Shown here in pieces: positions 16,262 through 59,265 of a stretch of DNA of 64,000 nucleotides. Position 1 is the first letter of the stretch, and the number at the start of each line of letters is the position of its first letter. This DNA is from Olleya sp. Bg11-27. GTDB lineage: Bacteria > Bacteroidota > Bacteroidia > Flavobacteriales > Flavobacteriaceae. The notes beneath the pieces were generated by a model that was not told the origin of the DNA, did no database searches, and worked only from the letters and a program-made list of their open reading frames with translations. The stretch spans positions 2,681,001 to 2,745,000 of the forward strand of contig NZ_CP025117.1 of the NCBI RefSeq assembly GCF_002831645.1, written 5' to 3'. The position numbers and the translations under genes are program-made.

Positions 16262-19200
16262 ATGAGACACCTGATTTTACTTGTAGCTATTGGTTTAACA
16301 AGTTTTTTTAACACAAATATTACTTCTACAACTTTAGAAGTTTCAGAGATACAAGTCTCTGAAAAATATGTAATACCAAGTGTTCATGAAGGTCAAAATT
16401 ATTATACGGCATCTGGAGGTGCAAATGGTACAGGTTGTATATTAGAAGCTGGAACAATTATTGACGATTCTACTACTATATATTTATTTGATATTAGTGG
16501 TCATTCAAACAATATGGAGACAGCAATAACTATTGATATTTGCGAACCTGACGTTACTACTATTTTGGAAAATAACAATGCTAGATATAGCCAGTATATC
16601 ATAGTAGAACCAGCATCAAATAGTAATACATATAATGTTAATCAGTTAGTGACGGATGTTTTAGTTAATAGTTCATGCGCAACGGTGTCAAATATTAATT
16701 GGAGTACGGGATCTAATTATGGAGATGTTAATGGTATTGGTTATTTTTCAGCTACGCCTGGTACTTTTGCTTTTGAGTCAGGAATAATTTTATCTACTGG
16801 AAACGTGATGGAGGCAGAAGGTCCAGAAACGGGGCCTCAAGATAGTGGAGGTAGTGCTTGGGAAGGTGATAGTGATTTAGAAGCAGTCATTAATACGGAT
16901 TTAGATGGTGTTCCTGGTGATGATTTACCTAATACTAATTCCAATAATGCTTCTTATATAGAGTTTAATTTTGTACCTCAAGTAGACAAAATTAGTTTTG
17001 AGTTTTTATTTGCTTCGGATGAATATGGTGTTGATCAGTGTGAGTTTTCTGATGCATTTGCTTTTTTACTAACTAACGTAACTACAGGCGTTACTACTAA
17101 TATAGCTGTAGTACCTGGAACAGGAGATGTTGTATCTACATATACAATAAGAGATAATATGTGGGCTCCTATTTGCTCTTCTGAAAATTCAACATTTTTT
17201 GATTCTTATTATGGAACAGGTTTTGCTACCGGATTACCTCCTGTTGACGATCCTGTTGATTTTGTAGGTTATACTGTCCCGATGACCGCAGTAGCTAATG
17301 TTGTTCCCAATGGTAATTATAAGATTAAACTAGTGATCGCTGATGACGGTGGTCCTTCAGGATTGGATACTAAAAAAAATTCTGCTGTTTTTCTAAAAGA
17401 GGGATCATTTGATTTAGGTGGCGATTTAGGTGAAGATGTTACTATAGCTGATGGTACGGCTATTTGTAGTGGCGGTGTTATTCCTTTAGATACTAATTTA
17501 CCAACAGTTGCTCATGTTTGGTATTTGGATGGGATGGTTATTCCTGGTGAAACTGGTGCTACACTTGATGCAACAGTGGGTGGAGTTTATAGTGTAGATG
17601 TCATTTTTTCAGCGACTTGTCAAAATTCAGATTCTATTGTAATCGAATTTATTCCGACTCCTATAATTGACAGTATTTCGAATCTTTTTGTTTGCGATAC
17701 AGGAACAGGAAGTTCAACTTTTGATTTAACGAATAATGAAACGTCAGCAATTGGCACACAAGATCCAACAGCTTTTACCGTAACATTCCATAACTCACAA
17801 AGTGATGCCGATTTAGATACTAGCCCTATTACTACCGCCGCCAGTTATGTTGGTACAGATGCTGAAATAATTTATATTAGGATAGAAGATAATGCTACAG
17901 GACAATGTGCTGTAACTAGTTCGTTTACATTACAATATTTAAATCCATCAATTTCTGCTACAAGTGATTTTATTATTTGTGATGATGTGACTAATGATGG
18001 GGTTGAAGTCTTTGATTTAACATTAAAAGATACCGCTATACTTGGAACATTAGATGCTAGTGTATATAGTGTTAGTTATTACTTAGATTTGGCTAATGCG
18101 AATTCAGGTACAAATGCACTAGCAGATAGCTATACAAATACAGTAAATCCGCAACCTATTTTTGTAAGGGTTGAAAGTATTGTTAGTCCTACTTGTTTTG
18201 TAACCTCTTCGACAGCCTTGTTCGAATTAATAGTGACACCTCAAGCATATTCGAATCAACTAGATCCTGTTATAGTTTGTGATGATGCATCAAATGATGG
18301 TTTTGAGATATTTAATCTTTCTAATTTAGAAGCTCATTTCTTAGGGGGACAAAGTACTTTAGATTTTACTATGACTTTTCATGAGAATTCAACAGATAGT
18401 GCTTTGGGTTTAAATCCAATTGCAAATCCTACTAATTATACTAATATAGTTAGTCCAACACAAACGATTTATGTTAGAGTAATCAATAATTTATATCCTA
18501 TTTGTGTCTCTTTAAGTAATTTTGACATCACTGTTAGTGCTCCACCTGCAGCAGATGCACCAGCGGATGTTTTTGCTTGTGACACCTATAGTTTACCAAT
18601 TTTGTCCGCAAACAACAATTATTATACAGCAACTGATGGACCAAACGGAACAGGGACTGTAATGACAGCAGGTGATAATATTACAACTACGACTACGCTG
18701 TATGTATATACGGAAATAGGAATAGCGCCAAACACGTGTTCGGATGAAAATAGTTTTGTTATTACGATCAATAATTCACCTGTAGCAGATGCTCCTTTAG
18801 ATGTTGAAGCTTGTTTTTCTTATGATTTACCTGCCTTATCGGTTAATAATAATTATTATACAGCAACAGGAGGACCAAGCGGTACAGGTGCTTTAATTAC
18901 TGCGGGAACTACAGTATTAACATCAATTACTTTATTTGTGTATGTAGAAACAGGTGTTTCTCCAAATAATTGCTCTGACGAAACTAGTTTTGATATTACT
19001 ATTAATAGTGCACCTATAGCAGATTCACCTGCAGATGTTCAAGCTTGTGATACCTACACTTTACCTGTCTTATCTGCAAATAATAATTATTACACGGCAT
19101 CTGGAGGTCCAAGTGGAACAGGTACTTTAATGATGGCTGGTGATTTAGTTACAACTACAACTACGCTTTATACATATACTGAAATTGGTATAGCTCCTGA

Positions 19201-22200
19201 TACCTGTTCTGGAGAGGATATGTTTTTAATTACTATAGATGCTACCCCAATTGCAGAATCGTCTGCAGATATTGAAGTTTGTGACACTTATACATTACCT
19301 GCTTTAACTACAGATAATTTTTATTATACAGCCTCAGGTGGTCCAAGTGGGGCAGGAGTTTTAGTTGCCGAAGGTACAGCAGTTACAACATCAACTAGTT
19401 TATTTATTTATAAGGAAACAGGAACAACGCCAAATAATTGTTTTGATGAAACTACTTTTGATATTGTCATAAATATTTCTCCAGTTGCAGATGCTCCTTT
19501 GGATGTTCAAGCTTGCGATACTTATACATTACCAGCTTTATCTCTGGATAATGACTATTATACAGCCACAGGAGGTCCTAATGGAATAGGAACTTTAATT
19601 GCAGCAGGAAATAATATAACGACAACAACAACACTTTATATTTATACCGAATCAGGAATCGCACCTAATAAATGTTCAGACGAAAATGAACTTATTATTA
19701 CTATAGATGCTAGTCCTGTGGCAGAGTCATCTGCTGATATTGAAGTTTGTGATACTTATAGTTTACCTACTTTAACGGCAGATAATTATTATTACACAGC
19801 CACAGGTGGTCCAAGTGGTACAGGAGTTTTAGTTGCCGATGGTACAGCAGTTACAACATCAACTAGTTTATTTATTTATAAGGAAACAGGAACAACGCCA
19901 AATAATTGTTTTGATGAAACTACTTTTGATATTGTCATAAATATTTCTCCAGTTGCAGATGCTCCTTTGGATGTTCAAGCTTGTGATACTTATACATTAC
20001 CAGCTTTATCTTTGGATAATGACTATTATATAGCAACAGGAGGACCAAATGGAACGGGAACTTTACTAGTAGCAGGGACCGATATAACAACCACGACAAC
20101 ACTTTATATTTATACCGAATCAGGAATAGCACCTAATAAATGTTCAGACGAAAATGAACTTATTATTACTATTGATGATACTCCAGTAGCGGAATCTTCT
20201 GTAGATGTTGAAGTTTGTGATTCTTATATATTACCTGTTTTAACTGCGGATAATTTTTATTATACAGCTACCGGTGGCCCAAGTGGTACCGGAACTTTAC
20301 TCGCAGAGGGATCAGCAATTACAGTGTCAACTAGCTTATTTATTTATAAGGAAACAGGAACAACACCAAATAATTGTTTTGACGAAACTTCTTTTGATAT
20401 TACTATTAATTATTCCCCAGTAGCTGATTCACCTTTGGATGTTCAAGCTTGTGATTCATATGTGTTACCAGCGCTATCTGTGGATAATGATTATTATACA
20501 ACTACAGGAGGACCAAATGGAACAGGAACTTTGCTTACGGCAGGAAATGACATTACTACGACAACAACACTTTATGTTTATATTGAATCAGGGATAGCAC
20601 CTAATAAATGTTCAGACGAAAATGAGTTTGTTGTGACTATTGATGTTACTCCTGTAGCAGATGCACCTTTGGATGTTCAAGCTTGTGATTCATATGTGTT
20701 ACCAGCGCTATCTGCCAATAATTTTTATTATACAGCAACAGGAGGTCCAAATGGAGTAGGAACTTTGGTCGCAGAAGGAACAGCAATTGTTACATCATCC
20801 ACATTGTATGTTTATATAGAAACAAGTACAACACCAAATAACTGTGCAGATGAAAATGTATTTAATATTACAATTGATATTTCTCCGGTAGCAGATGCAC
20901 CGTTAGATGTTCAAGTTTGTGACGTTTATACATTACCGGCATTATCTGCTGATAATTTTTATTACACAGAAACTGGTGGTCCAAGTGGGACGGGGATTAT
21001 TGTAGCAGAAGGAACAGTCATTAATACTTCTACTACTTTATATGTTTATACAGCGTTAGGTTCAAGTCCAAATAATTGTACAGATGAAAATAGTTTTGTA
21101 ATAGCAGTGGATGTCTCTCCAATAGCAGATGCACCTATGGATGTTCAAGCTTGTGATTCTTATACTCTACCTGCATTATCTACAAATAATTTTTATTATA
21201 CAGCAACAGGAGGTCCAAATGGAGTAGGAACTTTGGTAGCAGAAGGAACTGCTATTGTAACGACAATAACACTATATGTTTATACAGAAACAGGTACAAC
21301 ACCAAATAACTGTACAGATGAAAATAGTTTTGATATTACTATAGATATCTCTCCAATAGCAGATGCTCCTTTAGATGTTCAAGCTTGTGATAGTTATACA
21401 TTACCTGTATTATCAGTAAATAATAGTTATTATACTGCAACAAATGGTCCTAACGGAGTTGGTAGTTTAGTTGCTGAAGGGACTCAAATTACATCTACTA
21501 GAACATTATATGTGTTTGCCGAATTTGCGGGATCTCCAAATAATTGTACAAATGAGAATAGTTTCATAATTACTATTGACTTATCTCCTGTGGCTAATTC
21601 AGTGGCTGATATGATTCAATGTGAAAATGATTTCAATCAAATTGATATGTTTGACTTGTCTTCTAATAATAATACGGTTAGTAATGGTCAAGCTAATACA
21701 GTCGTAACTTATTATAATTCGTTAGCAGATGCAGAAGCAGGTGCTTCTGTAATACTAAATCCTGATGCTTATGAAAATACATCTAACCCTGAAACGATTT
21801 ACGTTAGGCTAGAAAATGAATTTTCAGGGTGTTATGATACGACAGCGTTAGATTTAATTGTTAATGATTCTGGAGCACTTGTCTCATCTTCTTCATTAAC
21901 TTTTTGTGATCCAGATAGTGATGGTTTTGGTATCTTTAATTTATCAGATTCTGAAGTAGAAATTACAGGAGCGGCGACAGGAGTAGAGATTTCATATCAT
22001 GAAACTTTAAGTGATGCAGAGCTTGATGTTAACCCAGTAATTGGCACTTATAATAATATAGTAGAGAATAATCAAGTTATTTATGTTAGAGTTGATAACC
22101 TAAATAATGGTTGTGCAACCGTTGTATTTTTAAACTTAATCGTCAATCCAACGCCTCAAATAACTGACTCAAGTCCATTGAAGGTTTGTGATAATGATAC

Positions 22201-57737: not shown

Positions 57738-58111
57738 ATTAGTTTAATTACGTTATTAGGTATCTACTGTGCTTCTCGATATAACTTGCTCGTGCCTCAG
57801 AAAATACTCGAGGTGACGGAACGGAGTAGAACGTGATAAATACAGTAAATACATAGGAGTAATCACGGTTCGTCAGTTCGAGTGCTTCGACGTAGGAGAA
57901 GTGTCTCGAGAACTTTTGTTTTATTAGAGTTTTCTTAGTTTACTATGCTTTTCGATACCATTTGTTCGTGCCTCACAAATCACTCGCAGTGACGGGATGG
58001 AGTAAAACGTGAGAAATAGAAGAAATACATAAGAGTAATCACGGTTGGTCAGTTCGAGTGCTTCGACGTAGGAGAAGTGTATCGAGAACATATAGAGAAT
58101 AGTAGCACATT
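57738..58111. other. Non-coding stretch left of the GIY-YIG gene
   Basis: 374 bases. After 35 bases of ordinary spacer it consists of two complete 140-bp repeat units (57773-57912, 57949-58088) joined by a 36-bp linker. Open frames crossing it are translations of repeat sequence and are not believed. Confidence 0.8.
57773..58088. repeat. REPIN-like repeat units 1 and 2
   Basis: Each 140-bp unit starts TTCTCGATAC-like and ends GTATCGAGAA-like, the exact reverse complement of each other in the best units. Inside, CACTCGAAGTGACG and CGTCAGTTCGAGTG form a second inverted pair. Units recur every 176 bases (140 plus a 36-base AT-rich linker). Two units lie to the left of the GIY-YIG gene. Confidence 0.92.
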
Positions 58112-58402
58112 TCAATCAAAAGTCTTCTTAGCTAAATTTATAATTTTTTCAAACTCATTATTTATCAGAGCTAATTTTTTAGATTTAGACCATTTTTTTA
58201 TTTGTTTTTCAGTAGAAATGGCAATATTAATATCAGTAAATTTTGCATAAAACTCTAATTTTATTGGTCTTCTTGAATACGTATAACTCTCGGGGTGTTT
58301 ACCATATTTATGTTCAATTAATCTATTGTTTAAATTTGAAGTAATACCTGTGTAATAGGTATTATCAGAACATTTTAATATGTATACGTAAGACAGTTTC
58401 AT
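58112..58402 (-). CDS. Single-domain GIY-YIG nuclease nested in the repeat array
   Basis: 96 residues: MKLSYVYILKCSDNTYYTGI provides the GIY-YIG core (YVYIL and YYTGIT), then LNNRLIEHKYGKHPESYT with the catalytic Arg, a conserved Glu in ISTEKQIKKW, and a basic SKSKKLALINNE end. This is the small UPF0213/YhbQ-like type without an extra DNA-binding domain. The family cuts DNA, but cellular targets of such small members are poorly known. The gene sits exactly where a 36-base linker would be between two 176-bp repeat units, flanked by GTATCGAGAA on its left and TTCTCGATAC on its right, so its flanks form an inverted repeat. Confidence 0.9.
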   Translation of the reverse strand: MKLSYVYILKCSDNTYYTGITSNLNNRLIEHKYGKHPESYTYSRRPIKLEFYAKFTDINIAISTEKQIKKWSKSKKLALINNEFEKIINLAKKTFD

Positions 58403-59265
58403 TTTTAAATATATGAAATTTAAATTTTCTCTTTTCTCGATACAGCTTGCCTATAGTTTATAAATCATTCAAAGTAACGATGCGGAATAGAACTTGTGAA
58501 ATAGAGAAAACACAAAAGAGTAATCACATTACGTCAGTGCCAGTGCTTCGATGTAAGAGAAGTGTATCGAGAACTTTTGTTTAATTATTGTTTTCTTAGT
58601 TTACTGTGCTTCTCGATACTATTTGCTCGTGCCTCACAAATCACTCGAAGTGACGGAACGGATTAGAAGGTGCTAAATACAGTAAATACATAAGAGTAAT
58701 CACATTACGTCAGTTCGAGTGCTTCGACGTAGGAGAAGTGTCTCGAGAACTTTTGTTTTATTAGAGTTTTCTTAGTTTACTATGCTTTTCGATACCATTT
58801 GTTCGTGCCTCACAAATCACTCGAAGTGACGGAACGGATTAGAAGGTGATAAATACAGTAAATACATAAGAGTAATCACATTACGTCAGTTCGAGTGCTT
58901 CGACGTAGGAGAAGTGTCTCGAGAACTTTTGTTTTATTAGTGTTTTCTTAGTTTATTGTGCTTCTCGATACAATTTGTTCGTGCCTCACAAATCACTCGA
59001 AGTGACGGAACAGAGTAGAACGTGAGAAATACAGTAAATACATAAGAATAATCACATTACGTAATTCGATTGTTTTGACATAGGAGAAGTGTCTCGAGAA
59101 CTTTTATTTTATTCGAGTTTTCTTAGTTTACTGTGCTTCTCGATACCATTTGCTCGTGCCTCACAAATCACTTGAAGTGATGGGATGGAGTGTGTTGTAA
59201 TTACTGTTGGAGGAGTGTCGATTATTCTTTATTATTCAATAAGTAACACTCCTTTATGGTTGGTA
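58403..59265. other. Non-coding stretch between the GIY-YIG gene and mutS2
   Basis: 863 bases. The first 31 bases are the GIY-YIG leader, 58434-59223 is five repeat units, and the last 42 bases are the downstream region of mutS2. No open frame is supported. Confidence 0.8.
58434..59223. repeat. REPIN-like repeat units 3 to 7
   Basis: Unit starts are at 58434, 58610, 58786, 58962 and 59137, that is 176, 176, 176 and 175 bases apart. Units 4 and 5 are nearly identical. Unit 3, next to the GIY-YIG gene, is the most diverged, unit 6 has lost one base, and unit 7 is shortened by about 50 internal bases. The gradient suggests growth by duplication of central units. Inverted pairs as in units 1 and 2, for example 58642-58655 with 58708-58721. 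Confidence 0.92.

Follow-up and report, generated by a model that had tools for sequence, protein, structure and literature searches.

A GIY-YIG gene lies within an array of palindromic units

The window (the whole 64,000-nucleotide stretch of Olleya sp. Bg11-27 DNA analysed here, part of a genome of 4.31 Mb in one contig) contains a tandem repeat array in which a small GIY-YIG nuclease gene is embedded. The initial annotation had described seven units of about 140 bp recurring every 176 bp, with a 36-bp linker replaced at the gene by a 345-bp insert. The pattern was found as described, and the figures were revised: matching of the 142-nt unit gave six complete units and a 54-nt half unit, 78–100% identical, with start-to-start spacings of 175–176 bp (486 bp across the gene) and inter-unit gaps of 34–35 bp, apart from 344 bp between units 2 and 3. 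The best off-diagonal self-match of the region scored 751 bits, compared with at most 41.9 bits in 100 dinucleotide shuffles; the array is therefore beyond chance.

All units are given on the forward strand. Unit 1 (57772–57913, 90% identical to unit 4) and unit 2 (57948–58089, 87%) precede the gene, which is on the reverse strand (58112–58402), and unit 3 (58434–58574, 78%) lies directly upstream of the gene start. They are followed by unit 4 (58609–58750), used as the reference copy, unit 5 (58785–58926, 97%), unit 6 (58961–59101, 90%) and unit 7 (59136–59189), of which the left half only is present (54 nt, 91% over this length). Units 2 and 3 are tail-to-tail, and the intact ORF in the gap that separates them encodes a single-domain protein of 96 residues (P0001), as first proposed.

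A whole unit consists of two inverted REPs arranged head-to-head around a spacer. Its ends are inverted (TTCTCGATAC / GTATCGAGAA or CTCGAGAA) and an inner inverted pair (CACTCGAAGTGACG / CGTCAGTTCGAGTG) lies inside the unit, two features correctly recognized at the outset. In unit 4, the left REP (58609–58655, reverse strand) is composed of an inward-facing CGTC, a CACTTCGAGTG core, an inner hairpin and a TATCGAGAA end, and the right REP (58708–58750, forward strand) of a CGTC tag, a AGTTCGAGTG core, a CTTC..GAAG hairpin and a TGTCTCGAGAA end; the spacer (58656–58707) separates the two CGTC tags. Both REPs thus have CGTC facing inwards, the tag of the CGTC-tagged REP superfamily, in which CGTC, TGTC or CCTC stands at one end of the palindrome. 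The head-to-head orientation was read in the six whole units of the window and in the L057 and Shinella units. We define the window-type REP as GTCANTTCGAGTG, a variable hairpin and TATCGAGAA. Canonical CGTC REPs have an 8–9 bp stem directly after the tag, a 4–5 nt loop and a CCA tail; judged by its sequence, the window-type REP is a longer, bulged variant that lacks the canonical stem and tail.

Of all units, unit 3 (58434–58574) diverges most (73–77% identical to the others in a pairwise comparison). It is 91% identical to its positional counterpart next to the gene of genome G005, and 89% identical to another G005 unit; there may be a separate reason for its retention, for example expression of the gene.

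No Rfam RNA family was found in the array at the gathering threshold. The only Rfam match in the window at this threshold was a Flavo-1 RNA (RF01705, 32731–32813, reverse strand), and the check for an intron at the array was limited to this search. Elsewhere in the window, positions 18550–21511 contain 234/468-bp tandem repeats, perhaps a long repetitive surface-protein gene.

The GIY-YIG protein and the predicted folding of the repeats

P0001 matched the GIY-YIG family PF01541 (2.3e-14), its sole Pfam match over 96 aa; the extra DNA-binding modules of GIY-YIG homing endonucleases, which have an intron or intein host, were not found. NCBIfam gave no match for P0001, PADLOC gave none for 2 proteins, and viral contigs gave 5 pattern matches and 0 relatives of P0001. 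Among 157 homologues, including the best 80 of 572 relatives from the cross-phylum scan (see below), Y17, R27 and E65 were present in 157/157, H31 in 156/157 and G19 in 155/157; these are residues of the GIY-YIG catalytic motif. The dN/dS ratio between the window gene and its G005 orthologue was 0.12. These data show conserved motif residues under purifying selection.

A fold model of P0001 had a mean pLDDT of 76.6, with residues 84–96 below 50. The closest fold was UPF0213 (E 4e-5), which is the nearest solved structure by sequence as well as by fold, followed by the branched-DNA nuclease Slx1 (E 0.04). P0001 shares a single minimal GIY-YIG domain with the UPF0213 / Slx1-like group (Dunin-Horkawicz et al., 2006; PMC1564403), and the passages of that article consulted here describe no association with REPs.

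In 52 distinct window-type REPs, 5.08 of the 7 positions of the inner stem were paired, compared with 2.95 when the arms were randomly re-paired, this register being the best of nine tried; the second-best is the same helix shifted by one (4.66 versus 2.75) and the remaining seven show little. This compensatory pairing indicates that the stem sequence changes while complementarity is kept. As single-stranded DNA, positions 58605–58750 (unit 4) had a predicted folding energy of -21.4 kcal/mol (z -2.28), a value reached by 6 of 200 shuffles, and the predicted fold of the whole unit is a branched structure. Isolated REP halves of the window unit folded no better than shuffles (z -0.68, -0.07 and 0.20).

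Homologous GIY-YIG genes are flanked by repeats

P0001 was searched in 60 relatives, of which 31 gave matches. The left and right 500-bp flanks of each gene were compared with each other by blastn, and a match at E ≤ 1e-3 was scored as two-sided similarity. One gene of 75 was excluded since its flank was too short, two short fragments from the P0001 search were left out, as were L056, L102, L103, L106 and L113 (no tblastn match at 1e-3), and the 74 testable genes include truncated and tandem copies (three in L053; two each in L032, L072 and L099). Two-sided similarity was observed at 62/74 genes, and at 57/74 and 45/74 with cut-offs of 1e-5 and 1e-8. Control sites placed some 50 kb from the gene, in part of these genomes, were positive in 2/23 cases. 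Pseudo-sites slid along the window were more often positive than the other controls, with 19/140 at 1e-3, 10 at 1e-5 and 7 at 1e-8; 8 of these 19 touch the tandem-repeat gene at 18–22 kb and 11 lie elsewhere. The uvrC genes, which encode another GIY-YIG protein, showed neither two-sided similarity (0/30) nor a tagged hairpin (0/30). Array periods and sequences vary from gene to gene.

In two loci a tandem duplication includes the gene: the array of L075 (G022) holds a pair of identical GIY-YIG copies, that of L053 (G028) one full gene and two truncated copies.

For a cross-phylum set, a GIY-YIG protein of another subtype served as query against 84,980 species genomes. Of 572 confirmed relatives the best 80 were retained, so that the set is biased to relatives of its query, and 13 plasmid loci were added out of 33 plasmid records with a match. 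These 93 loci (best 80 of 572 plus plasmids) comprise 30 from Pseudomonadota, 21 from Bacteroidota, 13 from plasmids and 29 from other groups. The two-sided test was positive for 79 of the 90 testable ones (best 80 of 572 and 13 plasmid loci), compared with 4/143 pseudo-sites in the same loci, and in this set the two flanks matched best in inverted orientation at 42 loci and in direct orientation at 37. No two-sided similarity was found at 12/74 genes in relatives and at 11/90 cross-phylum loci, and neither two-sided similarity nor a tagged hairpin at 13/75 and 6/93, respectively (best 80 of 572 plus plasmids for both cross-phylum counts). The main prediction of the initial annotation, that homologues would have such repeats beside them too, thus holds strongly.

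Two divergent GIY-YIG genes, in L110 (1498–1710) and L108 (1504–1716), have on either side, in place of CGTC REPs, a duplicated piece resembling a tRNA gene; they possibly belong to another subfamily, targeting tRNA genes.

The flanking palindromes resemble CGTC REPs

A hairpin finder blind to tags was run on the gene flanks of the 93 loci (best 80 of 572 plus plasmids) and on control DNA. The 55 kb of gene flank contained about 245 hairpins, the 86 kb of control DNA about 42. The commonest 5' tetranucleotides were TGTC (119 in flanks versus 8 in controls) and CGTC (55 versus 2), the opposite end of the hairpin being NTGG, the complement of CCAN; GTAG was absent from the 25 commonest tags. A tagged hairpin was present at 74/93 of these cross-phylum loci, still the best 80 of 572 plus plasmids.

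Hairpins chosen by their tag were then described in 157 loci, the relatives together with the cross-phylum set (best 80 of 572 plus plasmids). The 204 hairpins obtained had mostly stems of 8 bp (169) or 9 bp (30) and loops of 4 nt (96) or 5 nt (78); 174 stems started with AT and 126 hairpins had a CCA tail. At the 61 loci tagged on both sides (best 80 of 572 included), tails faced the gene in 42, tags in 9, and 10 were mixed. In the relatives, only 14/75 genes had a tagged hairpin with an unbroken stem of 7 bp or more, and the strict CGTC-REP form is therefore rare in the clade of the window; on reading, many flanks in these genomes contained palindromes that are tagged but bulged.

A 'CGTC REP' superfamily was described in five phyla by Di Nocera et al. 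(2013; PMC3733652), who, in the part of the article available, report no dedicated transposase and no case of a tyrosine transposase gene with CGTC REPs at its sides. Five of the hosts named there were compared. In Azospirillum lipoferum, Novosphingobium aromaticivorans, Neisseria and Bradyrhizobium, canonical tagged hairpins lie on both sides of a GIY-YIG gene; in Sinorhizobium meliloti the flanks of the gene repeat, without a canonical tagged hairpin. The palindromes flanking the GIY-YIG family appear, from these features, to fit the CGTC REP superfamily, a point absent from the initial annotation. They have in common with that superfamily, which includes Neisseria dRS3 and Rickettsia RPE, the CGTC/TGTC tag, 8–9 bp stems mostly starting with AT, 4–5 nt loops, the CCA tail, overlapping hosts and, in the units read, head-to-head dimers. 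Two differences are the GIY-YIG partner proposed here, where the earlier paper reports no dedicated transposase, and the REP of the window itself, which is longer and bulged and has no canonical stem and tail.

REP type follows protein subtype

REP similarity between loci was measured with 9-mers repeated within each locus. Strict regular-expression typing had left 71/157 loci untyped and was replaced by these repeated 9-mers and by looser cores, with which 73/157 remained untyped, leaving 84 genes for the tree (L167 was excluded, being the same locus as L049). REP similarity rose with protein identity (Mantel r 0.40, 0/999 permutations; L167 still included, as are the best 80 of 572). Among pairs with non-homologous neighbours (best 80 of 572 included), shared REPs were found in 24/7150 below 50% identity, 125/2670 at 50–60%, 75/436 at 60–70%, 28/63 at 70–80% and 16/20 at 80% or more. 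Paralogues of the same genome with less than 70% identity shared REPs in 1 of 66 pairs (best 80 of 572 included). Finally, 10 changes were enough to place the five REP classes on the 84-gene protein tree, including the best 80 of 572, compared with a mean of 44 after shuffling (0/200 as low); a few members of the tree carry a REP class that differs from that of their neighbours. REP type thus tracks protein identity, subtype and tree, and each enzyme must travel or evolve jointly with its REP.

This pairing bears on a possible role of the nuclease in repair, in which it would resolve cruciforms or hairpins formed by REPs, its proximity to them reflecting selection for a safeguard acting in cis and not mobilization. 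The similarity to Slx1, second-nearest solved fold after UPF0213 and a branched-DNA nuclease (E 0.04), and the branched structure predicted for the unit are in keeping with such a role. It does not easily account for the separate enzyme subtype of each REP type, for several genes per genome (six GIY-YIG genes in G000), or for the joint presence and absence of gene and REPs described below, and we regard it as very unlikely.

Presence and absence of the gene and of the REPs

The site of the window was compared in sister species. G002 has no array, G004 has a degenerate half REP, G001 and G003 have arrays without the gene, and G000 and G005 have arrays with the gene. Unit similarity within versus between genomes was 0.84/0.71 for G000, 0.85/0.69 for G003, 0.74/0.70 for G005 and 0.68/0.68 for G001; the higher similarity within genomes, hardly seen in G001, is what tandem duplication would give.

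On Sphingobium plasmids, 11 records matched both sides of one site, 7 with the gene between two REPs and 4 without it; 3 of the 7 and all 4 gene-less loci were read in detail. The gene seems to be frame-shifted in TomTYG73. Of the gene-less records, TomTYG64 and TomTYG74 have at the site a single palindrome tagged at both ends, TomTYG72 has no palindrome and TomTYG65 has a different, untagged one. In four Shinella records read, two have neither gene nor REP dimers, and two have both.

These loci bear on the strongest of the competing explanations, that of a passenger or parasitic GIY-YIG gene, which would home into REPs spread by something else and cut only for its own insertion. Homing is the classic role of GIY-YIG enzymes, and both the gene-less arrays at the same site in G001 and G003 and the solitary two-tagged palindrome of TomTYG64 and TomTYG74 speak for it. 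REP type, however, tracks gene subtype in different genera and where the sites are unrelated, with only 10 class changes on the 84-gene tree (best 80 of 572 included). Furthermore, the gene occupies a gap between REPs, and not the inside of a REP, both in the window and in the other loci that were read, and G000 has REPs of the same types also at places without a GIY-YIG gene match. We therefore consider a passenger gene improbable, and prefer to see the enzyme as the partner of its REPs.

At the genome level, the core pattern of one REP class was present in 24 of the 60 relatives, 20 of which had a GIY-YIG match; 11 genomes had a match without the pattern, 4 the pattern without a match, and 25 had neither. 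The window-type REP was found in 9/9 genomes with the gene subtype of the window and in 13/51 others, the subtype being delimited over residues 1–95 at 59% identity or more, a cut-off chosen after seeing the matches; addition of the next genome, G016, changes these counts to 10/10 and 12/50. Outside the subtype, G003 has 44 copies and G048 has 42. The prediction that abundance would track gene subtype thus held only in part: the REP is present in all nine subtype genomes and also in the 13 others, two of them with 42–44 copies.

In 120 genomes of a planctomycete class, dRS3-like REPs were present in 23: 10/17 with a close homologue versus 13/103 without one (E up to 1e-14, a cut-off also chosen after seeing the matches). 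When any GIY-YIG match in this class was counted, the difference, 12/43 versus 11/77, was not significant (p 0.09). This REP type occurred in 6 of 10 genomes or records behind chosen loci, the copy numbers being 150 (a planctomycete), 114 (a Neisseria gonorrhoeae record), 34 (Flavivirga), and 4, 3 and 1 (three others). Reversed-pattern controls gave 0 in every genome-level pattern count. These genome-level tests, which ignore phylogeny, support the link between gene and REPs, and REPs also survive without the enzyme.

G048 combines its 42 window-type REPs with the lack of any GIY-YIG match and a good Y1_Tnp match; it possibly houses an orphan REP population or a different mobilizer.

The least probable of the explanations considered is that REPs are moved by RAYT/Y1 (HUH) transposases, their association with GIY-YIG genes being incidental. 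In its favour, Y1_Tnp matches occur in 21/60 relatives, and the Y1 match of G048 has a value of 9.1e-26. The genome of the window, however, has only two weak ones (1.2e-5 and 2.5e-5), and 6 of the 9 other members of the genus have none, five of these carrying 4–14 window-type REPs and the sixth 1. The repeats across phyla (best 80 of 572 plus plasmids) are tagged CGTC/TGTC and not GTAG, and the absence of tyrosine transposase genes flanked by CGTC REPs, reported in the available part of PMC3733652, points in the same direction.

Discussion

REPs are among the commonest repeats of bacteria, and those tagged GTAG have a dedicated enzyme, RAYT, of the Y1/HUH type. Our observations show that genes of a family of small GIY-YIG nucleases are associated with CGTC/TGTC REPs and that protein subtype and REP type form cognate pairs. 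We think it likely that the nuclease is the dedicated partner of these REPs, as RAYT is for GTAG REPs, the two forming a widespread two-part element; cleavage and mobility due to the GIY-YIG enzyme are what we infer from this arrangement. On balance we also favour the broader proposal that small GIY-YIG nucleases are a second class of REP enzymes, evolved independently, which propagates the whole superfamily of CGTC-type REPs in many phyla, each subtype being dedicated to its own palindrome and moving with it as a minimal element of REP, gene and inverted REP.

The enzyme would recognize the tag and the extruded or single-stranded hairpin, and would nick near the tag. Host repair or replication could then copy or excise the REP dimer, sometimes with the gene, and arrays like that of the window would subsequently grow and be homogenized by ordinary tandem duplication. 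A covalent hold on DNA is not expected of a GIY-YIG enzyme; joining of strands would therefore depend on the host, unlike the situation with RAYT.

The likeness to REPIN/RAYT (TnpA-REP) systems lies in the short inverted pairs of REPs scattered through the genome, in a nuclease gene with these REPs on either side, in the cognate match of enzyme and REP, and in copies that persist without the gene. The differences are a PF01541 GIY-YIG partner instead of a Y1/HUH enzyme (PF01797), the CGTC/TGTC tag instead of GTAG, and the covalent strand transfer, which is not expected here. The RAYT role suggested for the enzyme by the initial annotation is partly supported, by the flanking repeats and by the pairing of subtypes, the link with abundance being incomplete.

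We found no report linking GIY-YIG proteins to REPs among the open-access papers searched, most subscription papers and all preprints being outside this search. In the portions of text available, the phylogenomic survey of GIY-YIG proteins (Dunin-Horkawicz et al., 2006; PMC1564403) has 0 occurrences of 'palindrom' and makes no link to REPs, and 'GIY' has 0 occurrences, with no such link made, in a survey of HuH enzymes (PMC6006769) and in a 2025 survey of REPs (PMC12306157).

An enzyme was known for GTAG REPs, the RAYT, and none before for CGTC REPs. If our proposal is true, a 96-aa protein and a synthetic oligonucleotide would be enough to put the question of the CGTC REP enzyme to the test, and a large family, mostly annotated 'GIY-YIG nuclease family protein', would gain a function. 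The partnership between REPs and an enzyme would then have arisen twice, from unrelated folds.
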